Origin: Toxorhynchites rutilus septentrionalis
Taxonomy: Eukaryota > Arthropoda > Insecta > Diptera > Culicidae
Assembly (NCBI RefSeq): GCF_029784135.1
Contig: NC_073745.1
Location: 80,849,569-80,913,568, forward strand
DNA: 64,000 nucleotides
Reading direction: 5' to 3'
Within the stretch, counting starts at the first letter, position 1; every line of letters starts with the position of its first letter. A model generated the notes under the pieces. It did no database searches and was not told the DNA's origin. It saw only the letters and a list, made by a program, of their open reading frames with translations. The position numbers and the translations under genes were made by a program. Positions 8,203-57,716 of this stretch are shown here, piece by piece.

Positions 8203-8269
<67 letters not shown>

Positions 8270-8362
8270 ACAATACTCAATAAATATGCACACCAATAAT
8301 AAATAAGTAAATAAATAATCCAAAAATATCACATGATGAAAACAGTTGTGGCAACTGTTACA
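6829..8362 (-). repeat. LTR (3' LTR in element orientation)
   Basis: 1,534 bp, TGTAGCGG...ACTGTTACA on the plus strand. Contains a 21-base T run (about 7634-7654) and an (AAAT)n array (about 8170-8272). Short open frames here recur identically in the other LTR and have no family resemblance. Confidence 0.95.
8170..8320. repeat. (AAAT)n microsatellite inside the LTR
   Basis: Near-perfect AAAT array. It is two units longer than the equivalent array at about 17021-17115, the only LTR difference I found. The frame reading LFIYLFIY across it is an artefact. Confidence 0.95.
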
Positions 8363-13424: not shown

Positions 13425-13466
13425 TCATAACAGGGCTGCTAGACTTCCCATTTCTGCATCCCGATT

Positions 13467-15275: not shown

Positions 15276-15679
15276 ATTTTAATATTTAAATAACACACAA
15301 TAAGCAACAACAATATAGTATAAATAGTAATAAATAACAAATAATTGTAAATATAATTTATAAATAAATAGGGAATATATAATTTGTAAATATGAAAAAA
15401 TAAAAATAATTCAGCACAATATTTTGCACATGCAACTCTAGAACAAATACAGCACAAATACTTTCAGAAAATACTTCAAAAATATTCCAACACTCCGGAG
15501 ACTATAATAATTCTATGTACAACTATATTACCAAAATTAACCCAAAAAAATGTATAAATATCACTAGAAATATCACGAAAAAGAAAAATTCTCTCCTCAA
15601 AAAAACCTAAGTCACAACGAAAAAATACTAAATTTGAATTTATTTTTTTCCAGGTTCGTACTTGTCGTTGGGCGCCAAA
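15276..15679 (-). other. Leader of the gypsy element with tRNA-Lys-type primer binding site
   Basis: AT-rich 5' untranslated leader. Next to the LTR, after two bases, the minus strand reads TGGCGCCCAACG (15666-15677). This is complementary to the 3' end of insect tRNA-Lys (12 bases), and a further CGAACC a little downstream also fits that tRNA. It is the expected site for first-strand priming. Confidence 0.85.
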
Positions 15680-17053
15680 TGTAGCGGACCGGGTTTTAAA
15701 AGACAACCCGGAACCTACGGCCAGCTCGAAGAAGGCTAACAGCTCAGCTTTCCCACCCGACCTCTCTTAAGCGATTGGCTTAAGCGCCACCTCTTTCGAG
15801 GACCAATCGCCGCGTTAGTTGCCCAGCTAGAGGCCTGACAGGCAGGCCTAAATTGTATCCTTTTATCAGGATCGGGGGACGATCGAGCTGTACCAATTCC
15901 AACCAGCGAAGACTTCTAGAAGACACCCGTAGGGTACTCCGAGAGAACCATCAAACGACCAAGAATCACCCTAAAAGCACAGAATACCACAACAGGGGTT
16001 TCTCATCACAGGCAACGTTACTCTAACAAATTACCAGACTGGCACGGCCATCTGGGAAACAAAGGAGGACCACAAACAACTCCAGACATCAACTACGAAA
16101 CACGGATAACGTGAAACCTTAATAAAAATAAATTGAATGTTCACAGGACATGTATTATAGCGACTTTTACTCCTAGACAACACTAGAAAACTTTCTGCAT
16201 TTGGGTAGACTATGGTTTTACATATTTCTACATTTATTTGTACATTTACTTTTGCTTAAACTATGGGGACATCACATGTGCACATGGACAAACAGGGTAC
16301 CTGGGGAGTGCGGTGAGGACACAAATTTCCTCACCGACTCCTTCTGCTTCTTTGCGGCGGATTCTCCACCGGTTGATAGCTTCCAGCGGGTCTGTTGAAG
16401 GCGCGATGGTAACGGCGCAGCCTTTTCTCCGACGCGTTTTGGTTCGTCGGGTTTAGCCAAGAGGAATTTCCCTGTTGTAGTCGCTTTTTTTTTTTTTTTT
16501 TTTTTCGCTCGTTAAATTTTATTGAGCGTTTGTTTGCTAACTAGGGACAAATGATGGCAAATTAGCGATCGCGAACAAAACACACAATGGTTCCGCGATG
16601 TCGGACAGTTCTTGGCAAAAATGGTCGAAGAACATTGTAGTCCTCAGATAAACCGCAGGGTATCTCTCGATTCAGAGCTCAAGCTCAGCCGAAGACAATT
16701 TCCCCAAAGCATCCCCTTGTGTGCATCTTGCTTCAACTAACCGTCCTTAGATACAGCCTTCTCATTTCCCTCCCCAAACTCAAGGCCACGAAAGTAAGCG
16801 CTGCGCGAACAGACACTCATTGGCCGAACAACTTTGGCGATTGAGCTTTCGCCCAGCTCCAGGGAGGTGGGATGGGAAATCTAAGCACTTAAGTATACTT
16901 TCTGGAGTATCTTTTAGTTTACTTTCGGTTGTGACTTAGTACAGGTACACTCCAAATGTTTCAGTGTGAGTTTTTGAATTTAAATTTTTATATTTGAATA
17001 ATTACTAACTATCCTAACCAATAAATAAATAAATAAGTATATAAATAAATGAA

Positions 17054-17112
<59 letters not shown>

Positions 17113-17205
17113 ACAATACTCAATAAATATGCACACCAATAATAAATAAGTAAATAAATAATCCAAAAATATCACATGATGAAAACAGTTGTGGCAACTG
17201 TTACA
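15680..17205 (-). promoter_or_regulatory. LTR (5' LTR in element orientation)
   Basis: 1,526 bp, the same sequence as 6829-8362 apart from two AAAT units. Would drive transcription towards lower coordinates. No TATA box was identified with confidence. Right-hand duplication ATGT at 17206-17209. Confidence 0.93.
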
Positions 17206-17329
17206 ATGTCATAAAACTAACTATCAAACAATTGAAAAATCTCAACCCCTATCCTAACGGAAATATCCACTTCTGATTGGTCGAAATTGACGACACATGC
17301 GGCGGGCCCCTGACAGAGACATCAAAACC

Positions 17330-17580
17330 GGGCTGCCTGGGGGAAATCGGCATTGCAAATACATGAAAATAGGAGGGGTTTTTGTTCCTACCGAAATGTG
17401 TTCCCTAACAGAGACATCGAAACCAAGCTACCTGGGGGAAATCGACATTGCAAATACTTGAAAGTAGGGGGGACTTTTGCTCCCACCGAAATGTGTTCCC
17501 TAATAGAGACATCAAAACCAAGCTGCCTGGGAGAATCGGCATTACTAATATATGCAAGTCGGGGGCATTTTCATATTGCA
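17330..17580. repeat. Minisatellite of element B (about 90-base unit)
   Basis: Three units sharing 'ctgcctgggggaaatcggcat', 'gcaaatacatgaaa' and 'ccgaaatgtgttccctaa'. The same family of units recurs at 19800-20360, 48980-49440 (minus) and 55660-55925, always inside HINE-like elements. Confidence 0.85.
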
Positions 17581-18340
17581 AGTAAGGTGAGTGATAGGAT
17601 TTCTTCCAGCAAATAAAATTTAAATTTGGAACTTTAATGTTAGTTGTCTCGTGAAACTTCATATCAATGACCGATCGTGTATTGTGAAAAATTTAGCACA
17701 AGTGTAAGCGTAAAATTTTATATGGTAGCAGTTTGGTTTAAAAATGACTTCATATATGAAACCATCTATTTCAATTTCCATAAATAAAAATCAAGGTGTG
17801 TTCCTGCTCGAGAACGGGTCGTTTGGTTTAAGCTGTCTGTTTTGTTGTGCTCATTTTCACCCAAAGAAAAATTTGTACGGCGAGAAAAATTGGAAAAGTG
17901 AAGAAACATTAGAAAAAGTGATTCCCCATATGCTCTACATATAGTATTAGTTGTTGTTAGTCCAATTAAAATTCGCATTGGGTTGAATAAACACTTAGAA
18001 AGTAAAAAATTATAAAAGAAAATTACCTTTTCCATTTCAAAAATGTTTTCTCTATAATAAAGTAACATGTTTTCACTGATGAGAAAAATTGATAATTGTG
18101 TTCGGTATTGGTAATTATTTTATATTACATTGGTGAGTTTTTTTTTCTTTATTCCATCCATACACAACACAGGAGGCATCTCGTCTAGGATCACATAGGA
18201 ATATTTTCATCATATCTCGTTCCACTTCGGTATCTTTTATCTGATATGCCCCATTCAATGACTGTTTACCATCCTTCTGTCATCATCACTCGATAAACAC
18301 TGGTGGAGTGAACAAACAATACCCAACAACCAAACAAAAC

Positions 18341-18356
18341 GGACCTTTTCAGAGCT
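18341..18356 (+). terminator. Degenerate histone-type stem-loop near the 3' end of element B
   Basis: GGACCTTTTCAGAGCT preceded by AAAAC, 120 bases before the element end. The sister copy at 56912-56929 has the closer match GGCCCTTTTCAGG(A)GGCT. Loop and flanks fit the histone signal; the stem has decayed. No histone coding homology was recognised upstream in either copy. Confidence 0.6.
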
Positions 18357-18477
18357 ACTAAATCATTATCAATGAGTTTAACGATGTAATTCTTCAAACA
18401 TACCCAAAATCAACAGATAGCCTAACGGAATCCTACGTCAACTATGCGGTCATGTCTTGTACACAAACCTCCTGTGA

Positions 18478-18748
18478 CTTTTTAGCCAAATCACGGCTTG
18501 AGACGTTGGGATTTGCTTTAATCATCCGCTTCACCTTTCCCTCCGTCTTTTTGTTCTCCGGTCCCGGTTTTCTTCCAGCTCCTTTGCCGTGGTCCAACGT
18601 CAACCGCTCCTGGAACCGCTTCAACACTCTGAAGACGGTTGAATGGTGAATGTTCAAAATTTTTCCCAACTGCCGGTGCGACAGGTCAGGAAATTCCAGG
18701 TGTTTGGAAAAAAATTTGTTCTCTCGACTCGCGTTGGTTCAACTCCAT
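18478..18748 (-). pseudogene. ITmD37E-type transposase, N-terminal half (DNA-binding)
   Basis: Minus strand: MELNQRESREQIF from ATG at 18748, one frameshift near 18688, then LSHRQLGKILNIHHSTVFRVLKRF (first helix-turn-helix), GRKPGP, KTEGKVKRMIKANPNVSSRDLAKK (second HTH). It stops at 18478 where element B begins; residues after LAKK (SQEVCVQD...) are element B sequence. Its continuation is at 6095-6638. Together the halves would encode a paired-like Tc1/mariner DNA-binding domain plus DD37E catalytic domain, now split by about 11.8 kb. Confidence 0.85.
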
Positions 18749-38107: not shown

Positions 38108-39085
38108 TCTGACTGTTGCGTAGAAGAAAGAATCTCTCCTAATCGAACGGCTACGAATTTATTGTAGCGCCGATGATCGGTGGAGCGTACCCCGCTAAAA
38201 CGGTACTGGCATCACTCCAGCTAAACCTTCGACTTACTGTGTACGTTAGGGTTGCAATGGATGCATGGAAAAAATTTCATCATCGAATTTCAAAAACCGA
38301 CCATGTACATTTTGTTTATCGACCCAAAAAAATGATCTGCGCACTGTTTCAGTCAGGGTTGCCACATATACAGAATATTTTGTATTTTACAGATTTTTCA
38401 ACAAATTTCAGATACAGAATTACAGATTTTCGGCAAAAATACAGAATTTACAGATTTTTTTTTAAATTAAATTTTAAATATTAAATTAATTACAGTGCAT
38501 ATGCTACGAGATGGCTTTGGTTGGAGGCAGTTATTAAGCGAAATCTTAAAGAGCTTAAATTATTTTTGACGTAGGACTACGTCTAACCGGAAGATATAGG
38601 GGGTGAAATGGAAATCTAGGCACTGAACAAGTAGGAAAAAATGCAAGATTTGGAACGCTTATAACTCGAGCATTTCTCAATAGATCGCAAAGGTTTTTGC
38701 ATCAATTGATAGGAAATATATCTACGCATCTATCATAACGAATAACATTTCATTTTTCTTGAGATAAATAATTGAATAATTGTGAAATATCAAGCATTGT
38801 CCAAATACACTATGTGCCCATTTTTGATTGGTCCATTTTGTGCTCCTCAAATCGTACCGACCAAAACGGGCAACCAGAGCAGCAGCGAAATAGAATGAAG
38901 CACGATTGGAAAGGAAAAAGAAAAAAATGAACGAAACATCGGTCGCAGTCTCACACATGCGTAATTCTCGAGCCAGCCAGTCAGCTTAAAAATCCCCGCT
39001 CCGCTGCCGTAACGATCATTCTCATCCGAACCGTACACCACATCGTTTCGCATAACCTCACATCAACAAACCAACACAAGCAGCC

Positions 39086-39567
39086 ATGGTTGGATATGGC
39101 AAAGGAGGAAAAGTGAAGGGAAAGGCAAAATCCCGCTCGAACCTTGATCTGGAGTTCCCGCTCGTGTTGATCTGGAGTTCCCCGCAAGGGTAGCTAGGCC
39201 GAGCGCGTTAGTACCAGAGTACCAGTCCACCTAGCCGGCGTTATATAGCTTCGGCCGCCGAAGTGATCGAGTTAGCTGGCAAAGCTGCTCGCGACGATAA
39301 GAAAACCTGCATTCGGAACAGAACACATTCGGTTCGGTGGACATCAAGACAACAACAGGCAGTTGCAGCGAGTGGCGAGTGGCAAACGCAATCGCAAAAC
39401 GGCATCAGGTAGCAGAAGAAAAAAGTTTGTTCTTTATACAAACTGCTTTGGCGGCAAATCCAGAACAAGGCGGCATCGAGGGCGTTCGAAATGGTTTTTT
39501 TCAAAACCACGAGTACTAAGTTTTCTAAATTGGAACCATTCCATAAAACAAGGCGCTTTTCAGGGCC
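39086..39567 (+). pseudogene. Histone H2A pseudogene, E1 unit 1
   Basis: ATG at 39086, then a peptide matching the H2A N-terminus (GKGGKVKGKAKSRSN). The alpha-1 region is disrupted by an indel; later codons in shifted frames resemble AERV, APVHLA, EVIELAGKAARDDKKT and a degraded C-terminal segment (NKLL...). It ends at a histone-type stem-loop 39552-39567 (GGCGCTTTTCAGGGCC, one mismatch). Canonical H2A is about 124 residues and the segment is of about that size. Not translatable as H2A. Confidence 0.88.
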
Positions 39568-40155
39568 ATTAAACCTTCCAAAAAAGAGTTTAGGAAATAA
39601 AGTTCAATGCTTTCTAAAACATTATCCAAAATAATAATAAAACACAAATTGATGTTTTCATAATTTGTTTGCCAGGATCTGATGAGTATGTGAATTTGGC
39701 AGTTGTTCTGAGCTTATTGATAGTTGGGGGCTTTCCTGATTATTCAATTTTCACCAATTCTTAAATTGTTTCCAGATTTAAAGTACAGTAATCTACAATT
39801 AGTTCGACATTTAGCTAATTGGACGGACATGTAATGCGACTTATTTAGTTGGACATTTTTGTAAACATAGAGATCCAAATTATGACCCCACATTGAAAGT
39901 CGACACTGTACCACTGTCATCGCAAATGTTCAATTACAGGTTAAAATTACCTCCAATCCGGCACTGAGTGGTGGTAATGCGACGTGCCATTGAATGTAAT
40001 TCACTGTAAAATATGTCACAAGCTGGATGGGAAGAAATTTTCCAACTGTGAAAGCTGTGGCGAGTGGCAAATGCAATCGCTAAACAGAAAGGTTTAGCCG
40101 AACAAGATGGGGATATCGAGTGATAACAAAACAATAAACTCTTTAGACTTTTTGT

Positions 40156-40171
40156 GATCCTGAAAAGGACC
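40156..40171 (-). terminator. Minus-strand histone stem-loop with HDE in the unit spacer
   Basis: On the minus strand GGTCCTTTTCAGGATC, followed 11 bases on by AAAGAG (the histone downstream element that pairs with U7 RNA). The same signal recurs at 41486-41501 and 51853-51868. It implies that the captured fragment once included a second, oppositely oriented histone gene (H2B is the usual divergent partner of H2A), of which no coding remnant is recognisable. Confidence 0.7.
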
Positions 40172-40331
40172 TTTTTTAGCCTGTATGTGAATCCAACGAG
40201 CGAACAAATCGTAATGAATGCATTTTTTTACCATCGCTCCCTTTTAACGCTCATTCGTTCGTCTCGTTGGACCCGCCCCTTTGGCTGAGTCTGCCGATTT
40301 GTCTCTATCCTGTGAGTGTGTACCGCTAGAG

Positions 40332-40338
40332 TATAAAA
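40332..40338 (+). promoter_or_regulatory. TATA box of the H2A units
   Basis: TATAAAA about 70 bases upstream of the H2A start region, in a repeat-conserved context (gagtataaaacacgcggacccc). Same at 41662 and 52029. Consistent with a replication-dependent histone promoter; activity unknown. Confidence 0.55.
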
Positions 40339-40403
40339 CACGCGGACCCCAAAAAAATATCTTATTTTCTTTCAAACCGTAAACCCGTGTGGTTGTACGG
40401 CAT

Positions 40404-40899
40404 CGGCATCGTGTACTCAACAAAGGAGGAAAAGAGAAGGGAAAGGCAAAATCCCGCTCGAACCGTGGTGGTCTGCAATTTCCCGTAGGTGTATCCGCCA
40501 ATTGCACCGGAAAAGGTAGCTAGGTCGAGCGCGTTAGTACCTGTGTACCAGTCCACCTAGCCGGCGTTATATAGTTTCGGCCGCCGGAGTGATCGAGTTA
40601 GCTGGCAAAGCTGCTCGCGACGATAAGAAAACCTGCATTCAGAACATAACACATTCGGAACATAACACATTCGGTTCGGCGGACATCAAGACAACAGGCA
40701 GTTGCAGCGAGTGGCAAACGCAATCGCAAAACGGCATCAGGTAGCAGAAGAAAAAAGTTTGTTCTTTATACAAACTGCTTTGGTGGCAAATCCGGAACAA
40801 GGCGGCATCGAGGGCGTTCGAAATGGTTTTTTTCAAAACCACGAGTACTAAGTTTTCTAAATTGGAACCATTCCATAAAACAAGGCGCTTTTGAGAGCC
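40404..40899 (+). pseudogene. Histone H2A pseudogene, E1 unit 2
   Basis: Same as unit 1 but lacks the ATG (reads ATCGTGTACTC). It keeps KGKAKSRSNRGG-LQFPVG-like codons, then an indel, APVYLA-like and EVIELAGKAARDDKKT in shifted frames. Stem-loop remnant at 40884-40899 (loop base changed, TTTTGA for TTTTCA). Confidence 0.85.
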
Positions 40900-41732
40900 A
40901 TTAAACCTTCCAAAAAAGAGTTTAGGAAATAAAGTTCAATGCTTTCTAAAACATTATCCAAAATAATAATAAAACACAAATTGATGTTTTCATAATTTGT
41001 TTGCCAGGATTTGATGAGTATGTGAATTTGGCAGTTGTTCTAAGCTTATTGATAGTTGGGGACTTTCCTGATTATTCAATTTTCACCAATTCTTAAATTG
41101 TTTCCAGATTTAAAATACAGTAATCTACAATTAGTTCGACATTTAGCTAATTGGACGGACATGTAATGCGACTTATTTAGTTGGACATTTTTGTAAACAT
41201 AAAGATCCAAATTATGACCCCACATTGAAAGTCGACACTGTACCACTGTCATCGCAAATGTTCAATTACAGGTTAAAATTACCTCCAATCCGACACTGAG
41301 TAGTGGTAATGCGACGTGTCATTGAATGTAATTTACTGTAAAATATGTCACAAGCTGGATGGGAAGAAATTTTCCAACTGTGAAAGCTGTGGCGAGTGAC
41401 AACAAATCGCTAAACAGGAAGGTTTAGCCGAAAAATATGGGGATATCGAGTGATAACAAAACAATAAACTCTTTAGACTTTTTGTGATCCTGAAAAGGAC
41501 CCTTTTTAGTCTGTATGTGAATCCAACGAGCGAACAAATCGTAATGAATGTATTTTTTTGCCATCGCTCCCTTTTAACGCTCATTCGTTCGTCTCGTTGG
41601 ACCCGCCCCTTTGGCTGAGTCTGCCGATTTGTCTCTATCCTGTGAGTGTGTACCGCTAGAGTATAAAACACGCGGACCCCAAAAAAATATTTAATTTTCT
41701 TTCAAACCGTAAACCCGTGTGGTTGTACGGCA

Positions 41733-42220
41733 GCGGCATCGTGTACTCAACAAAGGAGGAAAAGAGAAGGGAAAGGCAAAATCCCGCTCGAACCGTGGTG
41801 GTCTGCAATTTCCCGTAGGTGTATCCGCCAATTGCACTGGAAAAGGTAACTAGGTCGAGCGCGTTAGTACCTGTGTGCCAGTCCACCTAGCCGGCGTTAT
41901 ATAGTTTCGGCCGCCGGAGTGATCGAGTTAGCTGGCAAAGCTGCTCGCGACGATAAGAAAACCTGCATTCGGAACAGAACACATTCGGTTCGGCGGACAT
42001 CAAGACAACAGGCAGTTGCAGCGAATGGCGAGTGGCAAACGCAATCGCAAAACGGCATCAGGTAGCAGAAGAAAAAAGTTTGTTCTTTATACAAACAGCT
42101 TTGGCGGCAAATCCAGAACAAGGCGGCATCGAGGGCGTTCGAAATGGTTTTTTTCAAAACCACGAGTACTAAGTTTTCTAAATTGGAACCATTCCATAAA
42201 ACAAGGCGCTTTTCAGGGCC
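41733..42220 (+). pseudogene. Histone H2A pseudogene, E1 unit 3
   Basis: Nearly the same as unit 2, including the missing start and the indels, so units 2 and 3 are tandem copies made after the gene had decayed. Stem-loop 42205-42220. Confidence 0.85.
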
Positions 42221-42795
42221 ATTAAACCTTCCAAAAAAGAGTTTAGGAAATAAAGTTCAATGCTTTCTAAAACATTATCCAAAATAATAATAAAACACAA
42301 ATTGATGTTTTCATAATTTGTTTGCCAGGATTTGATGAGTATGTGAATTTGGCAGTTGTTCTGAGCTTATTGATAGTTGGGGACTTTCCTGATTATTCAA
42401 TTTTCACCAATTCTTAAATTGTTTCCAGATTTAAAGTACAGTAATCTACAATTAGTTCGACATTTAGCTAATTGGACGGACATGTAATGTGACTTATTTA
42501 GTTGGACATTTTTGTAAACATAGAGATCCAAATTATGACCCCACATTGAAAGTCGACACTGTACCACTGTCATCGCAAATGTTCAATTACAGGTTAAAAT
42601 TACCTCCAATCCGGCACTGAGTGGTGGTAATGCGACGTGCCATTGAATGTAATTTACTGTAAAATATGTCACAAGCTGGATGGGATGAAATTTTCCAACT
42701 GTGAAAGCTGTGGCGAGTGACAACAAATCGCTAAACAGGAAGGTTTAGCCGAACAAGATGGGAATATCGAGTGATAACAAAAACACAACACCAAA

Positions 42796-42811
42796 GGTTC
42801 TTTTCAGAACC
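42796..42811 (+). terminator. Intact histone mRNA 3' stem-loop closing E1
   Basis: GGTTCTTTTCAGAACC: perfect 6-bp stem and 4-base loop with the A/C-rich 5' flank (ACACCAAA), followed by CATCA and AGAAAGAG (downstream element). This is the full histone processing signal. The same sequence closes E2 at 53463-53478. Confidence 0.92.
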
Positions 42812-42988
42812 ATCAACATATTCAGAAAGAGTAAACAGTAAACTAATCCATTTTTCAGGTAGATAGGTAGGTATTCACGTAGGTGAAGAAAATAAAACAA
42901 TATATTTAAAATATATATTTAACAAAAGCTGTCCCCTTTGTATAGTCCTACGTCACTCCGGTTATGTCCCCGACATTACCCACCCGTC

Positions 42989-43960
42989 TTTTTTCGTTCC
43001 AAGTTATGTATGACCATAATCAATCCGCCAATCGTATATTGACTCATTTAGACGATCCTATGGCTAAATCGATTATACTGTTCCTAAACTTTGTTCTACC
43101 GCTCATCAATAACGCCAATCGCTCCTTTCAATCAGAAAGTTCTCAATATTGCGAACTTTGTAATGAGAGAAGACTGTTATTGTTGATCATGTTGGGTAAG
43201 TTATGTTTGGAGAGCTACGTGATGCTGACTTTTGAAAATTTTGAAGACTTTCTGAAGAAGCTTGAGGATGTTTGCGTTGGTATCGATGCAGAAGAAGCTG
43301 AAAAAGGATTGGATGCAGCTAGGAAGTTGATCTTCAAATCGATCTGTCGTGACATCCATATTGAACTGGTGAAACATAGCTGCAGCCTTGATAATCCGTC
43401 CAAATTTCGTCAAGCTACCAAACTTTAATGATTTGATACGACAATTTCCTCAATTCCTTGAAACAGGTAATAGACAAGGCTTGGATTACGAATTCAGGCT
43501 ACTTAAGTCGAATATTATGGGGCAAAAAATGGGTGACTCGGATATAACTTGGTCCCAGCTGTTGGGTGTCAAAAGGCGTGATGGGAAATTTTTGTATCCA
43601 TTGCTAAGGTCGTTTGTAAGACATTTTTTGGGGCTCTGCAATGCTTTTGCGATTGAGCCTTACACTTACACTTACAAATAGTCATTTTTGATGTCATTCA
43701 TTAGCATGTGTTTAGCGAATATTCTTGCGTTACAGGGCCATCAAAACAAAATCCGGAAATCGGTTGGCTCCCACAATTATGTACTCTGTTTTGAGAGCAG
43801 AGAACTATGTATCGCCTCAAGGAGGAGCGTCAAAGATAAAGTTGAAGAAAAATTCGATGGCAAAGTTCAACAAAACCATGTAAAAACATCATGCAATTCA
43901 GAGGCGAAAGACTTTTATATGATTTTTTTTAATGTATTGACACGACTTTCATAACCCATA
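42989..43960 (+). pseudogene. hAT-family transposase, C-terminal part (broken)
   Basis: Frame 1 (to 43428) reads SIILFLNFVLPLINNANRSFQSE, then VCVGIDAEEAEKGLDAARKLIFKSICRD; frame 2 (43388-43681) reads GLDYEFRLLKSN, WSQLLGVKRRDG, FLYPLLRSFVRHFLGL. The last is the hAT dimerisation motif (YPLL...LSLP). Later frames carry FANILALQGHQNKIRK-like codons and RAENYVS. At least two frameshifts. It lies inside the hAT terminal repeats on the same strand, consistent with being its own transposase. The catalytic N-terminal part is gone. Confidence 0.75.
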
Positions 43961-44678
43961 AATAAGAAAAATAAGTTGTGAAAATAAACCTTTACTTTCA
44001 TTTGTTTCCCTTTACTTTACGATACAGATTTTTGGCTAAAAATACAGATGTAAAGATTTTTTTCAGATAATTTAACAGAATTAAATGTGGTAACCCTGGT
44101 TTCAGCTTAATCGGACATGATTTAGGGGTGCCTCAAAGCACTCAAAGTTTTGATTTTTTGGCCACTCAGGCTAAGTCCCAAAAAGTCGATTTTCGGCCAA
44201 AAATTTTTTTTTCGAGATAACACCAGATCTCGAGGTTTCATGCGTTTTTAAGTCATTTGGCATCGGAAAATATCGATTTTCCAAATTTCCTTTACTCCCC
44301 CCTTGGAAGATTTTCGAGGATCAAAAAATCAAAACTTTGAGCGCTTTGAGGCACCCCTAAACCATGTCTGATCGAGCTGAAACTTTGCACAGGTCATTTT
44401 TTGTGCTAATAAACAAATTGTAAATGGTCGGTTTTTGAAATTCGATAATAATTTTTTTCCCATACCTTCATTGCCTCTCAGGTTAAGTCCCAAAAGGTCG
44501 AATTTCGGCCAAAATTTTTTTTTCGAGACGACACCAGATCTCGACGCTTTCTTCCATTTTCGTCATTTGGCATCGAAAATAAAATTTCGATTTTCCAAAA
44601 TTCCAAATTTTCAATGCTGCTTTAACCGTGATAGCGCTCCTCTTGTTCTATGTTATTATTTTTGACTTAGCACCTCTT

Positions 44679-44720
44679 AACGTAGGATTTCGTCTTTCGG
44701 GGACGTTTTTTAAAGAGGAC
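44679..44720 (+). mobile_element. 5' end fragment of a HINE-like element
   Basis: AACGTAGGATTTCGTCTTTCGGGGACG resembles the start of elements B and 55367-57050. No body or 3' end was recognised after it. Confidence 0.5.
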
Positions 44721-44998
44721 TTCACGCGCTTTGTGCAGCAAACCATAGTTTTGAATGAAATTGTTTAAATATTATTTTTCATTATTAAAAATGTATAAAT
44801 AAGGGAGTTTATGATAGTAAATTTTATCACTTTTTATGTTTTTTTTCCTATTAATACAACTTTTGTGACCTAATCAGTTATCTAAGCTCTTTAGTATTTT
44901 TTTAAATATACCCAAACTCATCCGCATTTTTGGCATATGCTAACAAAATTTACTTCGCATTCAAACGGTTAAACTAGTTTTAAATAACTGTCGATTAT

Positions 44999-45251
44999 TC
45001 AACCCTTTCAGACGATCCGGAAGGGCATTGTACACAGATGGACCGTAGAAAGAAATTCACATTTGCTCTAGGTTTGTGAAGGTTCTCGAACGCATTAGAT
45101 TATGAGCATACCGAGTATTGTGCTCATGATTTGTGGTCGGTAGGATGACGTTACAAAGCATTTTCTGATTTTGAATCCCGTCGTATACAAACAAGCAAGA
45201 CTGCAACTTGCACAGGTAAGGTAAACAAAGGTGCGGATTGCGCTGAAGCAT
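44999..45251 (-). pseudogene. Probable non-LTR retrotransposon reverse transcriptase C-terminus
   Basis: Minus-strand frame CLFVYDGIQNQKML...NHEHNTRYAHNLMRSRTFTNLEQMNFFLRSICVQCPSGS resembles the stretch that precedes WNSLP in CR1/L2/jockey-like reverse transcriptases (HNTR...R.RT....SF...G...WNSLP). The WNSLP itself is not there. Weak call based on pattern. Confidence 0.4.
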
Positions 45252-47119
45252 TACAATATTTTGGTAATGGGTGGGTTGAAAAATAATGTTTACTATATAT
45301 ATTTTTATCGCGTTAATCCATCATTCCTAGTAATAGTTATGATTTCTGTTTTAACTTACCCGGAATTTCAAATTGTCCCGGTGTACCTTATATTAAATTC
45401 ATTTGAAGAAGGTTCGTGGCAAACGGGAAAATTTTGATCAGCGTTGTATCTACAAATGGAAATGCAATGATGGAACAGCATACATTGAATAAACGTCTTT
45501 TCATCATTGTTTTTCATGACCTTAATTCGGGCAAGCTTTTATACACATACACACTCCTTTATATCTATGCATAACATTCCAACACCCGCCGACTGAAAGC
45601 GACCGAAAGCTATCAAATGAACAGCTTGGCATATTCCTCCCAATCCAAAAGCGGAAATTAAACAGAGCTCATCATCATCATTACCACCACGGCAATTACC
45701 ATTCTGGACGTTTTGCTACTGACGGACACCCGAAAATAAATGGCACGATGACCCAACTGTGGCCCGCGTGGACGGCTTCACGGTGAACCACATGCCAGCC
45801 TGGCTATCCGCAACACTCACCCCTCCAATGTCAGAGCATAAATAAAGTTCTGCCGCTGACAGACGAGGACGACGATGTGCGTAACAGCTGTCCAAAAGAG
45901 GGGTGGAAGGATGATGACTCGCTGGGTGTGTGCCCCCTCAAAACCACCCAGAAAACACCGGTGTAATGAGGCTCCCAAGGTTCGCGTGTGAGCACCCACT
46001 TGATTGATGGGAACAAAAATTGATTCTCAAACCGTGAGCTGATGGGATCGGTTCAGGAAAAATAGCAGCGTGGGTTGTGATTATTGGCATGTATAATTGG
46101 AGTGAATGCGGTCTAATTTGCTACGATTGAGCGGAGAATCTCGTTCAAACACAAGTAATCATTTGTTGTAAAGTGTCCCCAAAAATCATGAATAGCGTGT
46201 TATGTGAATAGATAATTAATTTAATTATATGACTGAATACTATTGAATTTCGTAAAGTGTTCTGCTCCCAGTCGGAATTTGTTCGTTCGTAGTACATAAT
46301 TAATTGGTATTTCCCGGAAAACAGTTTATGTTGCTCAAATTTTCCACCAGGCATTATGAAATACCTGACCGAGATAATGAACAATCGCAATTCACTCTGA
46401 CAGAAACGCATTTGAGTGCACCTGCCAGCCCCAGGGAAAGGTATTTTAATTAAACCGTATGCTGTAACAGCAATTTTGCAATTTTCCCAAATTCCATTAC
46501 CAAATGCTTAAGCGAACAAATGAGAGCACGTAGGTAATTGCGTATGTTCCAAGGTGATTGTGTTCGAAGCGAATCCTCTAAACACGTATGATACCATCGG
46601 TGGTAAACGTATGTAGAACATAACCGTTAAGCGGGACTTGGCTTCATCCAATTTAATCATAATGACGTTAATATTCCGAGTGCAGCTCTTGTATGATAAG
46701 TCCCACCCAATCCCAAGCACTGACGTATGCTCTTCGCTCAGTCAGCTCGTTCAGGGATACGCCTCGGGGGACAGCGAGGGAGGATGCTCTGTTGAACATG
46801 GTGGCTGAATATCTGACAAGAGATTTAATCACTTATTCATGTAGAAGTTGTCCTCCGAACGAACGTTTCGCAGTTGTTGTAAATCCAAAACTAATGCGTG
46901 CCACCGAATTAATTTGCGTTCTGATGATTCGATTTCCATTCGAGATTATAAAAACTTCAGCCAGAAGGCTGAATGTGAAGACTCACGCTATTCAATTAAA
47001 TCTCTTATTGTGACACTTGATCCAATGATGCAATGCTGCGACATTCAATATGTGTTACAGCGCAGTGATTCGAATCCTAATCCTCATGATCTGAAAGCTG
47101 GACAAGCTGAAAAAATTAT
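45252..47119. other. Stretch without recognisable gene
   Basis: The longest frames (46693-47013 plus; 46145-46411 minus) are unrecognised. Segment 45700-46050 is less AT-rich and repeat-free and could be conserved non-coding DNA. Confidence 0.4.
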
Positions 47120-47172
47120 AGGAGGTTGTGTCCTGGAGACACGACCGCATTGTTGACGTAGAACTACGCTGT
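47120..47172 (-). mobile_element. 3' end fragment of a HINE-like element
   Basis: Minus orientation: element end AGGAGG, a hairpin of stem GGTTGTGTC / GACACGACC (47124-47146; 8 of 9 pairs plus a G-T), then GTTGACGTAG. The hairpin stem differs from other copies but pairing is kept. No 5' end was found at higher coordinates. Confidence 0.6.
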
Positions 47173-48746
47173 AATTTAATTCAAGTCGCTTGTTTATAAC
47201 TTCGAATATTATTTTATAATGCTACGACATTTTAAAAATAACTGTTTAGTACAATGGTGTGGTCGTCCTGAAATGTTTTTTTTTATTGTAGAATCACGAT
47301 AATTGATTGATGATTCATGATGGCCTGCTTCGCCATAGCATCAGTTCAATGTATTGATGCAATGTCAAAGGAACCAAAGAAGACCCCATGATAACGGAAA
47401 ACAAGCAATGTTAAGTGCTTTTAATAAAGAAAATGACTGAATATTTGCTTCAACAGATATTCATTGTTCATACCCTAGTGCAAATATTCCTCTTCCGCTA
47501 TCACCTCTCTTTGCCAATATTCATCATCACTTATATTCATCATATTTTGCACCACCAAACAATCGTTCATCATAGCATCAAAGAAATTCGACGGCTGTTG
47601 CATCGCGACAGGGCCAATGCACACAGCATTGCAGGTACAAATGGATACAAATACAATTACAGCGTAGCGAAGATGTACTATTCTTACGTACGGGTTATGA
47701 AGCACGCAAGTACGCCCATAAATATCCATATATCCAAATATACACACACTTATCTACGTTTTGCGCTCTTCTCAACGGAAGCCCTTTCTGTTGATATTAC
47801 CGGTCTAGATTAGCTTAGCTGTCATCCTTGATGTGGAGAGTTTTGCTACCGTCATGCGTAATCAAATCACACACAAAATTTCAGAACAATTATTTTCTTG
47901 GTGGGCCGACGATAGCCTAGTTTGATGATTCCTCACACAATTGTGTAGTTCAGAACACGTACAGGGAACAAGAATTGATGGAGTCAGAAAATAGTGCATT
48001 GTTTTTACCAAGGGTCCCCTTGAAAGCAAAAGAAAATTGAGCAGATCGAACTGTTTTAAAGAACTGTGTCGAGACGATGGAGCAAATCCGTGGGGAAACG
48101 CCAACGATTTCTGTTGAATCGTGTCCCGAAAAAAATTAATGTTTCCGAAACACGACGCAACAAATAGGGACAACTACAATATATGGTGTGGAGGAAGACG
48201 AACGAGTACATATGTCTGTGGGATACACTCGGGAATCTACCAGAGTGAACCATTCTCAATACGTTAATTCAATAGTGGCTCCCGTTTTCCAATATAGCGA
48301 AGCTCTGGGAATTTGGTGGTTCTTTTTGGCACAAAATTAATAATGTTGGCGTTTACCAGTCCAACATGTTTCAAGCGTTCAAGCAATTAACTTGAACATC
48401 TGTGTTTCTTTAGGAACAACAAGAGACGCTTCTGAAGACTTTCTTCCTTGTATGTTTTATCGGGCCCTATCATAGAAATGGAATTATAGAAATCGAGGAA
48501 AACAGCTCGATTCGTTACTCTGCTCGAATGTCAGTGGCGGTGCTGAAATATTTTGAAACGAGTTTAAAATCTTTCACAAAGCACTATAGAAAAGATACCA
48601 AATCTTTTTGTAAGACATCTGCAAGAAAATCATAAATATCTGTATTTCCTGAGTGTTAATATGGTTATGTTTTGGAGAAAACTGATATTCCCTCAACGAA
48701 TGATGCTTAATAGGTGTAATGCATGCATGGATGTGTAATAAAAAAA
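47173..48746. other. Stretch without recognisable gene
   Basis: No frame over 132 codons (47415-47813 plus, no resemblance). No repeat shared with the rest of the window. Confidence 0.5.
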
Positions 48747-49709
48747 TGGGTGGGTTACATCTATGATATAACCGCAAGGTTGACGTGGTACTAACTTAGC
48801 TTAGCAATCATTTGTTTGTACTGATTAAATTTTTGATTGAATGAAACAATTTCCGAATTCAATTTGTATAAAAAGATTATATAATGCCATGTGAGATCAA
48901 TTCATGCATTGTGATAGATTATGTTCTTCGTTGTAAGAAAATTTAATGACAGTCCTTTTACGTATGGTATGATGACATCTTGGTATTGAAGACTGTGTTA
49001 GACAAACACATTTCAGTCGGAATAAAAATGCCCCCGATTTGCATGTATTTGCAATTCCGAGTTCCCCAGACACCTTCGTTTAGAAGTCTGTAATAGGTAA
49101 ACACATTTCAGCCGGAACAAAACTGGCCCCGAGTTGCATGTACTTGCAATGCCAATTCTCCCACGCTCCATGGATATGAAGTCTGTGTTAGGGAAACACA
49201 ATTTCACCACGCTCCTTGATTTTGAAGTCTATGTTAGGGAAACACATTTCAGTCGGAAGCAAAATACACCCGACTTTCATGTATTTGCAAAGCGGATTCC
49301 CTCAGGCACATCGATTAGAAGTCCGTGTTAGGGAAACACAGCTTGGTTGGAACAAAAATACCCCCTACTTGCATGTATATTTGTTAAGCGGATTCTAATG
49401 AGTACATTGATTTTGAAGTCTGTGTTCGGGAAACCGTAAATCGGGCCAATCAAAACTAGGCAGTTAGAGCGTTTAGATAACGCTTGACATTTCACAGTTA
49501 TTCAATTGTTTATCTAATGAAAAATAACATTTTATTAATTGCGATAGAAGCGTAGAAATATTCCGTAGAAATTGATGCAAACTTCTTTCCGATTCAGTAA
49601 GAAATGTTCTAGTTATAAGCATTTGGAATCTTTCATTTTTTCCTGCATGCTCTGTGTTTAGGTTTTCATTTTACCCCCCATATACTCCGGTTAGACGTAG
49701 TCCCACGTC
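48747..49709 (-). mobile_element. HINE-like element, relative of element C
   Basis: On the minus strand starts GACGTGGGACTACGTC (ends at 49709, followed by AAAAG) and ends with the subterminal CCACGTCAACCTTGCGG, a GGTTATA.../TATAACC-like hairpin with changes, and CCACCCAT before a T run. 963 bp with a minisatellite (48980-49440). Confidence 0.7.
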
Positions 49710-50293
49710 AAAAGACATCATGGAACAATTTGCTTTACAAAAAATATAATTATTAGAAAATGAAATTTTTCATGTATTTTCACAACCGCAATCTATGGAA
49801 TTCCGTAAGGAGTCACACATGAATTCCACTTTTTTTAGCAAAACAATTTTGACGTAGGACTACGTCTAACCGGAAGATATAGGGGGTGAAATGGAAATCT
49901 AGACACTGAACAAGTAGGAAAAAATGCAAGATTTGGAACGCTTATAACTCGAGCATTTCTGAATAGATCGCAAAGGTTTTTGCATCAATTGATAGGAAAT
50001 ATATCTACGCATCTATCATAACGAATAACATTTCATTTTTCAAGAGATAAATAATTGAATAATTGTGAAATATCAAGCATTGTCAAAATGCCCTATGTGC
50101 CCATTTTTGATTGGTCCATTTTGTGCTCCTCAAATCGTACCGACCAAAACGGGCAACCAGAGCAGCAGCGAAATAGAATGAAGCACGATTGGAAAGGAAA
50201 AAGAAAAAAATTAACGAAACATTGGTCGCAGTCTCACACATGCGTAATTCTCGAGCCAGCCAGTCAGCTTAAAAATCCCCGCTCCGCTGCCGT

Positions 50294-50731
50294 AACGATC
50301 ATTCTTTGTGTGGACACCGACTGGACAACATCGTTGCTGGACGAGCTGGACGGCGAGGGATCGAGTGCCTTTCTCAAGGCAAGAGGGCGGAGGTGGTAGC
50401 GCTGGAGTAAAAGTAGAGTAGAGTTTTCAAAGGGCCTTTCTCAAGGCTAGAGACGAATGAACTGCAAAAGTTTAAAGTCTCTATAATACAAGACCTTCCT
50501 TCCTTCCGTAACGATCATTCTTTGTGTGGACACCGACTGGACAACATCGTTGCTGGACGAGCTGGACGGCGAGGGATCGAGTGCCTTTCTCAAGGCAAGA
50601 GGGTGGAGGTGGTAGCGCTGGAGTAAAAGTAGAGTAGAGTTTTCAAAGGGCCTTTCTCAAGGCTAGAGACGAATGAACTGCAAAAGTTTAAAGTCTCTAT
50701 AATACAAGACCTTCTTTCCTTCCGTAACGAT
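50294..50731 (+). repeat. 219-base tandem duplication in the E2 leader
   Basis: Two nearly identical copies, each with 'gtgtggacaccgactggac', 'ctggacgagctggacggcga' and 'caaagggcctttctcaaggc'. E1 lacks the segment entirely (its leader runs straight from 'taacgatcattctcat'). A relative of the first half occurs at 5452-5520. Confidence 0.9.
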
Positions 50732-50800
50732 CATTCTCATTCAAACCGTACACCACATCGGTTCGCATCACAACACATCAACAAACCAACCCAAGCAGCC

Positions 50801-51261
50801 ATGTCTGGACATGGTAAAGGAGGAAAAGTGAAGGGAAAGGCAAAATCCCGCTCGAACCGTGTTGATCTGGAGTTCCCCGCAAGGGTGTAGCTAGGCCGAG
50901 CGCGTTAGTACCCGTGCACCAGTCCACCTAGCCGGCGTTATATAGTTTCGGCCGCCGAAGTGATCGAGTTAGCTGGCAAAGCTGCTCGCGACGATAAGAA
51001 AACCCGCATTCGGAACAGAACACATTCGGTTCGGTGGACATCAAGACAACAGGCAGTTGCAGCGAGTGGCGAGTGGCAAACGCAATCGCAAAACGGCATC
51101 AGGTAGCAGAAGAAAAAAGTTTGTTCTTTATACAAACTGCTTTGGTGGCAAATCCAGAACAAGGCGGCATCGAGGGCGTTCGAAATGTTTTTTTTCAAAA
51201 CCACGAGTACTAAGTTTTCTAAATTGAAACCATTCCATAAAACAAGGCGCTTTTCAGGGCC
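50801..51261 (+). pseudogene. Histone H2A pseudogene, E2 copy 1
   Basis: Has the most intact start: MSGHGKGGKVKGKAKSRSNR, then DLEFPAR where H2A has GLQFPVGR, and an in-frame TAG. Downstream codons resemble AERV, APVHLA, EVIELAGKAARDDKKTRI in other frames. Stem-loop 51246-51261 with one mismatch. Confidence 0.9.
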
Positions 51262-52054
51262 ATTAAACCTTCCAAAAAAGAGTTTAGGAAATACAGTTCA
51301 ATGCTTTCTAAAACATCCAAAATAATAATAAAACACAAATTGATTTTTCCATAATTTGTTTGCCATGATCTGATGAGTATGTGAATTTGGCAGTTGTTCT
51401 GAGCTTATTGATAGTTGGGGACTTTCCTGATTATTCAATTTTCACCAATTCTTAAATTGTTTCCAGATTGAAAGCACAGTAATTTACAATTTGTTCGACA
51501 TTTAGCTAATTGAACGGACATGTAATGCGACTTATTTAGTTGGACATTTTTGTAAACATAGAGATCCAAATTATGACCCCACATTGAAAGTCGACACTGT
51601 ACCACTGTCATCGCAAATGTTCAATTACAGGTTAAAATCGCCTCCAATGCGACACTGAGTGGTGCTTCGGCACGTCGCATTAAATATAATTTACTGTACA
51701 ACATGTCACAAAGCTGGATGGGAAGAAATTTTGCAACTGTGAAAGCTGTGGCGAGTGGCAACAAATCGCTAAACAGGAAGGTTTAGCCGAACAAGATGGG
51801 GATATCGAGTGATAACAAAACAATAAACTCTTTAGATTGAAGATAATTTTGTGATCCTGAAAAGGACCCTTTTTAGCCTGCATGTGAATCCAACGAGCGA
51901 ACAAATTGTAATGAATGCATTTTTTTGCCATCGCTCCCTTTTAACGCTCATTCGTTCGTATCGTTGGACTCGCCCCTCTGGCTGAGTCTGCCAATTTGTC
52001 TCTATCCTGTGAGTGTGTACCGCTAGAGTATAAAACACGCGGACCCCAAAAAAA

Positions 52055-52937
52055 CAGGAAGTGGGTTATATCTATGGTATAACCGCAAGGGTGACGTAGG
52101 ACTATCGTTGATTTAGAGATCATTTGTATGAAGTTGAATCTGAATTCATTCTGAATGAATTAATATTTGGAGAACTTCGAAAACGAGAGCGTTACGTTGG
52201 AGGCACAAGGTTTTATGCATCCAATATTGGATACGGAAATATCCTACTGATGGGGAAGAATAATCTTCAGAAGCTATCCTGTTGATTGCGATTGATTGAA
52301 AAATCACAAAACCTAATGTATTTGGTCACAGTGTTACATGGATAGAAAACATTCAAATAAACTCTTTCACATGAATGTATTTTTAAATTCCTAGAGGAAC
52401 TGGCAGATTATTTTCCGGATCTTTCTTGATCCAAACTGAAAGAATTCCGTGCGTGTATGTGTGTGTGTGTAGCGGCTGCTTCGAGATCTTCCCGGGGAAC
52501 CGTTTGTAGCATCACTCTCCTCCTGATGGATTCCCTTCTGGCCTAAGGTGCACAAACAGGCTCTTGGTGACACCGTTCATCCGCGCTTTCATGATAAATG
52601 AAGAGCTTCACCACAACAGCGACAACATGCTCCAATCGCTGTTCAATTAGAACTGAGTGGATTTCCGAGCGGCGCTCGCTTATATACCGATTGGTGATTT
52701 CAATAGCCTATTTTGAAAGCAAATTTAAGACTATTGAAACAAGTTTTTGGATCAGAAAGTAACAAGTATAGAACGCGTAGACATTTTATCTTTCGAATGA
52801 AGTGTTTATCATACCATTTCGTTCAGTTGTTTAGGAGCTATTAACACTCAAAATCTCGGTCTCCGGCGTAACGCTTTCGTTTTCGAAACTTTGATTTTAC
52901 ACCCCGGTATAGAAATGAAAGACGTAGGTCCTACGTC
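52055..52937 (-). mobile_element. Compact HINE-like element E3, nested in E2
   Basis: 883 bp. Minus strand: starts GACGTAGGACCTACGTC, ends TCCTACGTCACC, hairpin GGTTATA/TATAACC, CACTTCCTG. The undisturbed target is visible at 40342 and 41672 (ggaccccaaaaaaatat): E3 lies inside that A run (T run on its own strand). Carries the 'tatataagcgagcgccgctcg' promoter-like block and a CA microsatellite, and is the reference for the halves at 2619-3240 and 5720-6094. Confidence 0.8.
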
Positions 52938-52989
52938 AAAATATCTTATTTTCTTTCAAACCGTAAACCCGTGTGGTTGTACGGCATCG

Positions 52990-53478
52990 GCATCGTGGAC
53001 GTAATAAAGGTGGACAAATTAAGGGAAAGTCAAAGTCTCACTCGAACCGTGCAGGTCTCCAGTTCCCTGTTGGTCGCATTCACTGATTGCTCCGCAAGGG
53101 TAACTAGGCCGAACGGATTGGTGCCGGAGCACCAGTATACCTAACAGCGATTATAGAGTTTTGGCCTTCGGAGTGCTCGAGTTGGCTTGCAAAGCTGCTC
53201 ACGACAATCAGAAAACCCGCATCAAGAACAGAGCAGCTTCGGTTCGGCGCTCTTCAAGGCAACAATTAGTTTCAGTGAGTGGCAAAGTGTTTCTCCGGCA
53301 CGTCGCATTAAATGTAATTTACTGAACAACATGTCACAAGCTGGATGGGAAGAAATTTTCCAACTGTGAAAGCTGTGGCGAGTGGCAAACGCAATAGCTA
53401 AACAGGAAGGTTTAACCGAACAAGATGGGAATATCGAGTGATAACAAAAACACAACACCAAAGGTTCTTTTCAGAACC
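52990..53478 (+). pseudogene. Histone H2A pseudogene, E2 copy 2
   Basis: Start region damaged (ATCG-TGGACG for ATGTCTGGACG) but then the best H2A match of the window: [17 protein letters not shown], stop where Arg is expected, LLRKGN, AERIGAGAPVYLTAI. The C-terminal half is frameshifted and lost. Ends with the intact stem-loop 53463-53478 (GGTTCTTTTCAGAACC). Confidence 0.92.
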
Positions 53479-53651
53479 ATCAACATATTCATAAAGAGTA
53501 AACAGTAAACTAATCCATTTTTCAGATAGGTAGGTATTCACGTAGGAGAAGAAAATAAAACAATATATTTAAAATATATATTTAACAAAAGCTGTCCCCT
53601 TTGTATAGTCCTACGTCACTCCGGTTATGTCCCCGACATTACCCACCCGTC

Positions 53652-55366: not shown

Positions 55367-57050
55367 GACGTAGGATTATGTCTTTCGGGAACATATTGGG
55401 GTACAAATTGAAAATCGAAAATCGAGCACATCGGGGAAATGGGGAAAATATCCAATTTCAAATGCTTATTGCTCAGTCATTTCATGATGGAGTGATGAGA
55501 TTTTTGCGTCAATCGATTTCGGCACTCCATGACAATTTTTTATATTGAAGAAAATAATATAGGTCATGACACAAACTATCGAACAATCGAAAAATATGAA
55601 CCCCTATCCTAACGAAAATACCCACTGATTGGTCGAAATTGACGACACATGCGGCGGGTCCCTAACAGAGACATCAAAACCAAGCTGCCGGGGGGAAATC
55701 AGAATTGCAAATACATGAGAGTAGAGGGAACTTTTGTTGCTACTGAAATGTATTCCCTAACAGAGACATCAAAACCAAGCTACCTGGAGGAAATCGGCAA
55801 TGCAAATACATGAAAGTAGGGGGAACTTTTGTTCCTACCGAAATGTGTTCCCTAAAATAAACATCAAAACCAAGATGCCCGGGGGAAATCGGCATTACAA
55901 ATATATGAAAGCGGGGGGCATTTTTATATTGCAAGTAAGGTGAGTGATACGATTAATTCTAGCAAATAAAATACAAATTTGGAACTATAATGTTGGTTGC
56001 TTCGTGAAATTTCATATCAATGACCGATCGTGTATTGTTAAAAATTTAGCACAAGTGTAAGTGTAAAATTGTATATGGTAGCAGTTGTTTTAAAAATGAC
56101 TTGAAATATGAATTTTTTTTTTCAATTTTCATAAATAAAAACCAAGGTGTGTTCTCGCTCGAGAACGGGTCATTTGGTTTTAGCTGTCTGTTTTGTTGTG
56201 TTCATTTTTACACAAAGAAAGTTTATACGGCGAGATAAATTGGAAAAGTGAAAAAATATTGGAAAAAGTGTTCGCTCTACATATAGTAGTAGGTGTTGTT
56301 AATCCAATTAAAATTCGCATTGGGTTGAATATTGGGTTGAAAATTACCTTTTCCATTTCAAATATGTTTTCTCTATATTAATGTAACATGTTTTTAATGA
56401 AAAGAAAAATTGATAATTAGAATGAAGGGGTGTAAGTGATTTGATCGATTTCTCTACATCGACTCTCTCTTTCGATCATAATTTAGCTGCAAATACATTC
56501 CCAGCTGTATTTTACAATGTAGAAGATAGGTCAGAAACTCATCTATCGGATTCTATAGCAAACTTAAATTGGAACGTTTTTACAGTTGAGTTATTAACTA
56601 AAGAAAAAGTTGATGAAGAGAAATCGATCAAGTCACTTACACCCCTTGCACTCTAAGCCCCTCAATTGTGTTCGGTATTGGTAATTATCTTATATTACAT
56701 TGGTGAGTTTTTTTTTCTTTATTTCATCCATACATAACACAGGAGGCATCTCGTCTAGGATCACAGAAGGCGGTTTTTTATCATATCTCGTTCTACTTCA
56801 GTATATTTTATCTGATACGCACCACCCAACGACTGTTTACCGTCCTTCTATCATAATCATTCGGTAAAAACTGGTGGAGTGAACAAACAATACCCAACAA
56901 TCAAACAAAACGGCCCTTTTCAGGAGGCTACCAAATCATTATCAAAGAGTTTAATGATGTAATTCTTTATACATATCCAAAATCAACAGATAGCCTAACG
57001 GAATCCTACGTCAACTATGCGGTCGTGTCTCGGATACAACCCTCCTGTGA
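55367..57050 (+). mobile_element. HINE-like element, uninterrupted sister of element B
   Basis: 1.68 kb. Starts GACGTAGGATTATGTC after CTTTTT; ends TCCTACGTCA, hairpin with stem GGTYGTRTC type (57021-57041) and CCTCCTGTGA before CTTTTTT. Minisatellite 55660-55925. Histone-type stem-loop at 56912-56929 followed by AAAGAG. Provides the empty site for the gypsy insertion in element B. Confidence 0.72.
56912..56929 (+). terminator. Histone-type stem-loop (one inserted base)
   Basis: GGCCCTTTTCAGGAGGCT with 5' flank CAAAACG and 3' flank ACCA, then TCAAAGAGT 16 bases on. Flanks and downstream element match the histone signal more fully than the stem does. Confidence 0.65.
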
Positions 57051-57716
57051 CTTTTTTACTGTATTCACTGTTCATGTTTTAAGCTACAAAAAATCCTGGA
57101 TAAATTTCCTGTCTAATGGTATATACAGTCAACTCTCCCTAACTCGATATCCAAAGGGACCATCGAGTTAGGGAGGTATCGAGATACAGAACATTTTTTC
57201 ATATTTTTCTTTATGTCATAAATTGTCATGTATTAGGGTAAGTGTCCCAATTATGGTATGAATTTGAATTTTTGACTCAAAGTGAAAAAACATCTTTCTC
57301 ATATAAAAAATTTTTTTTTTCCAGAATCTCTCAGGAGGTGATAGACGGTTATATTTCACGAAAAAAATCCTTCTACGCATATGTTAGAATTTCAACGATG
57401 ACAGACTTATAGAACTTTTTCTTTGTTTCGGATTCTGTTGGCTCAAACTGACTCTACATTGAAAAGTATGCTACGTAATCCGATTTTGTTGCTTTCATTT
57501 AAAAGATGAGAAAATTTAGTACAGGATATAGTAGTGGAACATCTAAATTAGTGGATTAAACATTTTTGAAGTGGAAAATTTAAAAGTTTTTTTTTATTTG
57601 TAATTATTAATTTTATCCTAAAAATTCATACTAAACTTGATTGTTTCTATCAATTAAATTAAAGCTCTCTACAATTTGTTCTTTGACGCCCAACTTCTAT
57701 CTCTCTTAATTTCGCT

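Follow-up and report, generated by a model that had tools for sequence, protein, structure and literature searches.

How do the signals that end histone messages come to stand near the 3' ends of transposons, and do they serve the transposon there? The question is raised by a stretch of 64,000 nucleotides from the mosquito Toxorhynchites rutilus septentrionalis (NC_073745.1, positions 80,849,569 to 80,913,568; "the window" below means this whole stretch), which contains mobile elements with pieces of replication-dependent histone genes and histone-type 3' stem-loops. The elements belong to four families, here called A to D, of the Helentron group of rolling-circle transposons and its non-autonomous derivatives (HINEs); their features are collected in Table 1. 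A first-pass annotation had proposed that Helitron-group elements captured and multiplied histone gene pieces, and this holds for at least two families, one with H2A and one with H3. The reading that we consider likely combines HINE origin and histone capture with a further component, namely that the mRNA of the autonomous partners' replication gene would end like a replication-dependent histone mRNA.

The partners encode a Rep/helicase/endonuclease protein (Rep/Hel), and their loci bear the ends of families A, B and C. A search with the Helitron N-terminal domain listed 132 matches, and the 3' side was aimed at in 12: nine Helentron 3' sides, two stretches without Helentron sequence (L093, L094) and one copy from a different Helitron group (L079). 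The family A gene (1674-residue frame at C2:6,602,146-6,607,168, scanned in two pieces) contains PF14214 (Helitron_like_N), PF05970 (PIF1 helicase) and PF03372 (Exo_endo_phos); it is flanked by at least three family A H2A units on the left and by the family A 3' end on the right. A second family A gene at C2:26,079,453 is 99.8% identical over 639 bases of the 3' part and has different flanks. Family B is represented by a 1564-residue frame at C2:320,570,664 with the same domains, family C by copies at C2:95,628,221, C3:105,135,252 and C2:90,351,286. The A and B proteins share 67% identity over 1549 residues; the C protein matches that of A at 54-71% in most blocks and at 88% in one block of 73 residues. 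The best-scoring named relatives are mosquito proteins (57-70%), a match in the mite Galendromus occidentalis covers 99% of the query at 50% identity, and no relative was confirmed in a scan of IMG/VR. We note that L077 also contains open frames of 245 and 163 residues (1421-2158 and 2178-2667) in the interval that separates the autonomous family A element from a family A copy in inverted orientation.

All nine Helentron 3' sides, from three families, have a histone-type stem-loop on the sense strand, 220-472 nucleotides past the Rep/Hel stop codon, in one copy with a mismatch in the stem. The signal reads GGTTCT-TTTC-AGAACC in family A (472 nucleotides after the stop), GGTTCT-TTTT-AGGACC in family B (288 nucleotides) and GGCTCT-TTTC-AGAGCC in family C (220 nucleotides), and its layout is the same in each: a 6-bp stem, a 4-nucleotide loop, 14 nucleotides, and AAAGAG. 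The host's own replication-dependent histone genes are built alike, with AAAGAG or GAAGAG at 14-18 nucleotides in seven of the eight host stem-loops compared; the eighth (L004) has AAGTG. The Rfam model RF00032 (gathering score 34) gives 40.5 bits to the family A copies L077 and L084, 38.1 bits to the family C copies L088 and L090, and 38.8 bits to L091. The motif did not arise in any of 5000 dinucleotide shuffles made from each of the three 3' untranslated regions (UTRs), and no stem-loop is present in L079, the Rep copy of the different Helitron group. Stem pairs 3 and 4 differ among the families and from most host genes while pairing is kept, in family B via G-U. Despite 67% protein identity between A and B, the 3' UTRs of the three families share just the stem-loop signal, the subterminal repeat and strings of chance length. 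No clear histone coding is found in these three 3' UTRs, the single tblastn match having an E-value of 0.16 (family B), and neither AATAAA nor ATTAAA occurs between stop and 3' end in families B and C.

The terminal stem-loops of the two family A elements in the window (at 42796 and 53463) are intact, as had been noted at first pass, and score above the gathering threshold. Their supposed origin as part of the captured H2A pseudogenes has to be given up. Positions 526-742 of L077 correspond to window positions 42778-42994 at 97%, that is, the HINE shares this stretch with the Rep/Hel 3' UTR; the two stem-loops lie within it and are therefore inherited from the putative Rep/Hel terminator by internal deletion. 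The window elements are demonstrably internal-deletion derivatives of an autonomous Helentron. In family C the stem-loop is decayed in both non-autonomous window copies and kept in three of three Rep/Hel copies. Among family A copies drawn by their 5' end, it is intact in all three monomers where it is visible; it is gone through a gap of at least 49 bp in L055, a copy with intact ends, and altered in a nested copy in L060. Such a pattern of retention would be expected of a signal that the protein-coding element requires but that the DNA does not require in order to transpose. Young family A copies were also considered for signs of selection on the stem-loop, but they are uninformative in this respect, as the query by whose similarity they were chosen includes the stem-loop.

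In histone pre-mRNA processing the stem-loop is described as bound by SLBP and the downstream element as recognised by the U7 snRNP. The Rep/Hel transcript may be cleaved by the same two factors at its stem-loop signal; the cleaved mRNA would lack poly(A) and would be stable in S phase, and the replication enzyme would then be made during host DNA replication, which a rolling-circle element can exploit at that time. The block about 165 bases upstream of the first-exon-like Rep/Hel ATG of family A derives from the promoter-like block of the H2A unit and may add S-phase transcription. This is a weak suggestion because the TATA is altered (TACAAAA replaces TATAAAA in both copies read), and promoter function is a guess. 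The first-exon-like open reading frame (ORF) of family B (59% identity over 22 residues) has its own TATA-like ATAAAAAG upstream. That the replication gene of a mosquito Helentron group is under histone-type 3' end control, with one family perhaps having captured a histone promoter as well, appears to us moderately probable.

Several observations weigh against histone-type processing of the Rep/Hel message. The family B copies L075, L086 and L087 reach 22.9 bits with RF00032, under the gathering score, although all six stem pairs form (one as G-U), and in L092, also of family B, the stem contains one mismatch and Rfam gives no hit. The family A 3' UTR contains two AATAAA, one of them ahead of the stem-loop. 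The distance from stop to stem is 220-472 nucleotides in Rep/Hel versus about 40-50 nucleotides in the two host histone genes examined. Splice-site-like sequences and a separate first-exon-like ORF point to introns in Rep/Hel; metazoan replication-dependent histone genes are without introns (PMC5636114, in part) and the host histone genes are short, whereas Rep/Hel is a transposon gene of about 1660 residues that probably contains introns. Other, decayed histone stem-loops also occur in the elements, so that accidental acquisition is conceivable. Finally, the sample consists of 12 of the 132 listed Rep matches, from one species.

Accidental acquisition is the core of the alternative that survives best, which we nevertheless find unlikely: the stem-loops after Rep/Hel would be functionless leftovers that hitch-hiked with captured histone genes, and Rep/Hel would be polyadenylated. 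Elements of families A and B do carry captured H2A or H3 with decaying stem-loops, and family A has poly(A) signals. The captured histone genes differ from the host genes at 8-17% of second codon positions, and at this level 16 bases left unchanged by luck are not rare in one element. But hitch-hiking would have to place the signal in three families at the same place, on the same strand and with the same 14-nucleotide spacing, without adjoining histone coding; it does not account for the missing poly(A) signal in B and C, nor for a stem whose sequence varies while its pairing is preserved, nor for decay in both non-autonomous C copies of the window against retention in three of three C Rep/Hel copies.

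Slightly less probable still is that the story ends with the capture of histone genes by a Helentron family, as in Culex. Such capture in a mosquito was already published in 2014 for Helentron-Cq-32A and HINE-Cq-32A of Culex quinquefasciatus (Thomas, Vadnagara and Pritham 2014, PMC4067079, cited here and below from parts of its main text). The likeness comprises palindromic subterminal inverted repeats (subTIRs), a 3' stem-loop, a TT target where the number of Ts varies, and tandem repeats; the Culex element, too, contains pieces of two histone genes, broken by stops and frameshifts. The H2A and H3 captures in the present genome agree with this precedent, whose eight copies carry an H4-superfamily (smart00428) and an H15 fragment instead. 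However, capture alone leaves the conserved post-Rep/Hel signal of three families unexplained, and family C is without histone coding in the parts read (L070, L088). A histone 3' processing signal after Rep/Hel goes unmentioned in those main-text parts of PMC4067079, its supplement aside. That the stem-loop is a DNA feature required in cis for transposition, an extra hairpin near the 3' end, is very improbable. In favour, its distance from the 3' end is no more than a few hundred bp in families A to C; against it stand the intact ends of L055 around its gap of at least 49 bp, the lack of a stem-loop match at E<=10 near the 3' ends of the two D elements and the two B HINEs in the window, and the separate terminal hairpin in all families.

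We return to a histone-type end of the Rep/Hel mRNA and its relation to known systems. DINE-1/INE-1 of Drosophila is likewise a non-autonomous member of the Helentron group, with a TT target, subTIRs and a 3' hairpin, and differs in that histone content is not described for it in those parts of PMC4067079. The Caenorhabditis Helitrons that spread heat-shock elements are also rolling-circle carriers of a host regulatory motif (PMC6927752, in part); they carry a transcription-factor site, whereas here an RNA 3' processing signal would stand behind the transposon's own gene. A literature search, with most subscription papers outside its coverage, gave no publication that joins Helitron with SLBP, or histone stem-loop, transposable element and SLBP. 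Within the limits of that search, a histone-type 3' end behind the replication gene of a transposon, here in three families, appears to be new.

The assignment to the Helentron group is made because the elements combine palindromic subterminal repeats, a 3' hairpin, insertion between Ts, and Rep/helicase/endonuclease partners. Some elements of this group additionally have an RPA-like ORF of their own. The subterminal repeat GACGTAGG or GACGTGGG is common to families A-D. In family A, GACGTAGGACTACGTC stands at position 1 and TAGTCCTACGTC 34 bp ahead of the 3' end, distances slightly shorter than those of mite Helentrons (about 2-4 nucleotides at the 5' end, 38-60 bp at the 3' end; PMC4067079). 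The family A hairpin lies 8 nucleotides from the end; near-end hairpins are also found in B, D and one of the two C copies, the fold being less clear in the C copy that ends at 18478. Family A is flanked by at least TT before the element (10 of 10 5' ends) and TTT after it (30 of 30 3' ends), with no target duplication besides Ts. In the copy-in-copy insertion L037/L061, ATTTATC became ATT-element-TTTTTATC, Ts alone being added to an empty site known from other copies. Mutator elements have terminal inverted repeats and a target duplication of about 9 bp. A Mutator carrier (MULE) was rejected: no duplication other than Ts is seen, and the Mutator-like transposase of the window (PF20700; 604-residue open frame at 335-2149, reverse strand; at most 63% identity to other proteins, the named ones from insects) lies outside the elements. 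Readings as Helitrons proper or as miniature inverted-repeat transposable elements were rejected on ends and target site, as were the ATon elements of Aedes aegypti, which insert at AT, unlike these elements (PMC3422177, in part).

Family A is a young, abundant family in Toxorhynchites rutilus septentrionalis. The first-pass claim of two window elements with identical ends is confirmed to the base, with G at 38568 and 49851, C at 42988 and 53651, a T-run followed by GACGTAGGACTACGTC at the start, and CCCACCCGTC followed by a T-run at the end. Genome searches gave 783 first-look candidates for the 5' end and 425 for the 3' end, numbers that do not represent true copy number; 40 were scored for each, all at 100% over 253 bases for the 5' end and all at full length and about 100% for the 3' end. 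Both ends recur on other chromosomes, and the H2A stretch is at a fixed position in eight of ten copies drawn by the 5' end; the remaining two are interrupted by a nested element at about position 358, the point of passage into the interior. The conditions named at first pass as refuting the proposal are thus not borne out. Thirty copies (29 fetched loci and the window copy) diverge from their consensus by 0.35-1.75% over 1150 bases, with a mean pairwise difference of 1.7% measured upstream of the query region; they were chosen by similarity, so that the estimate leans young. Between common ends, family A copies contain one (monomers, 1768 bp), two or three units of about 1.33 kb, and eight copies fetched to 5.7 kb consist of three complete monomers, three dimers and two monomer-like copies without intact 5' start. 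An A/T-rich region at about position 340-365 has repeatedly received Helentron insertions in other family A copies (flanks of L032, L056, L060 and L090); this self-nesting hot spot may feed capture and multimer formation. The second family A copy contains a tandem repeat of 216 bp (50287-50718) that is also present in family B sequence downstream of L003.

The histone cargo itself is decayed. All five H2A pseudogenes reported at first pass are recovered, at 67-72% identity to an H2A gene of the host cluster and with 4-7 gap events each. No full-length histone match is found in the window elements or in two scanned autonomous stretches, and what spreads is a decayed histone piece. The copies establish that family A took up pieces of an H2A cluster, amplified them within the element in head-to-tail order and has spread recently, and that a sister family did likewise with H3. 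Decay has also reached the stem-loops acquired along with the H2A and H3 genes (24 and 23.7 bits; a reverse-strand one has 29.7 bits). Dating the capture from third codon positions was rejected, as two host H3 types themselves differ at 63 of 137 third positions. An intact H3 in L003 (C3:278458448-278461825, at 1483-1893) is identical to the H3 of L002 at 411 of 411 bases, the identity beginning at the transcription-start region and ending ahead of the stem-loop. It abuts the A-tailed 3' end of a non-long-terminal-repeat (non-LTR) retrotransposon, beside family B Helentron sequence, and looks like a template-jump retrocopy of a histone mRNA; it was for this appearance rejected as element cargo. 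In the C3 histone cluster (C3:233.55-233.68 Mb), several Histone-family matches have one in-frame TAG (frames of 118 or 189 residues), unlike the listed matches of the C2 cluster, and this cluster is perhaps decaying.

The remaining elements required some revision. The H3 block does contain two H3 pieces but does not belong to the same family as the H2A elements: it is a member of the related family B and lacks its first bases, the complete relative (C2:320,563,415-320,575,900) beginning about 100 bases earlier with GACGTAGGACTACGTC. The two further elements described as carrying a stem-loop exist and form family C; their stem-loops are decayed, one reaching 19.3 bits and the other, near 18341, being absent from the RF00032 matches at E<=10. 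The element at 6639-18478 is a single element split by a Gypsy retrotransposon. A short inverted-repeat element with ends GGCGTCGTGCACAAATTACGTAACGC, spotted by eye, is nested in the H3-bearing element at 5295-5450.

Table 1. Elements, histone pieces and stem-loops in the window (positions count from its first nucleotide).
Feature	Position	Strand	Remark
Family B element, 5'-truncated, with two H3 pseudogenes	2616..6094	+	complete relative with Rep/Hel at C2:320563415-320575900
H3 pseudogene	3759..4072	-	family B, inverted order with second H3
H3 pseudogene	4406..4719	+	family B
Family C HINE interrupted by Gypsy element, stem-loop decayed	6639..18478	+	
Family D HINE (3' limit approximate), without histone stem-loop	19493..20845	+	
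Family A HINE, trimer of H2A-bearing unit of about 1.33 kb	38568..42988	+	ends shared by monomer, dimer and trimer copies
5' palindromic subterminal repeat GACGTAGGACTACGTC	38568..38583	+	identical in second copy at 49851
H2A pseudogene piece 1	39086..39313	+	
Decayed stem-loop (24 bits) of captured H2A unit	39547..39592	+	repeats at 40879, 42200, 51241
Histone stem-loop (29.7 bits) in inter-unit spacer	40131..40176	-	repeat at 41461-41506 (24 bits)
H2A pseudogene piece 2	40422..40639	+	
Promoter-like block with TATAAAA before H2A piece	41560..41674	+	putative promoter role
H2A pseudogene piece 3	41752..41969	+	
Intact histone stem-loop GGTTCTTTTCAGAACC, AAAGAG 14 nucleotides downstream	42796..42811	+	RF00032 at 42791-42835, 40.4 bits
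3' subterminal repeat TAGTCCTACGTC, hairpin GGTTATGTC-CCC-GACATTACC, 3' end CCCACCCGTC then T-run	42943..42988	+	30 of 30 loci
Family D HINE (3' limit approximate), without histone stem-loop	48747..49709	-	
Second family A HINE, containing a 216-bp tandem repeat and a nested element	49851..53651	+	
H2A pseudogene piece 4	50801..51010	+	
Family B HINE nested in second family A copy	52055..52937	-	
H2A pseudogene piece 5	52996..53222	+	
Identical intact histone stem-loop, second family A copy	53463..53478	+	RF00032 at 53458-53502, 41 bits
Family C HINE with decayed stem-loop (56907-56955, 19.3 bits)	55367..57051	+	

For the timing of replication in animal rolling-circle transposons, a transposase-type gene with a histone mRNA tail would offer a direct, testable link to S phase. 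If histone-type control of Rep/Hel is true, this would be the first protein-coding gene outside the histones for which SLBP/U7 processing is known, breaking the rule that confines such 3' ends to histone mRNAs, and rolling-circle transposition would be coupled to S phase. Many histone stem-loops of this genome would then sit in transposons, which matters for the annotation of histone genes and for the reading of histone-like small or poly(A)-minus RNAs in mosquitoes.

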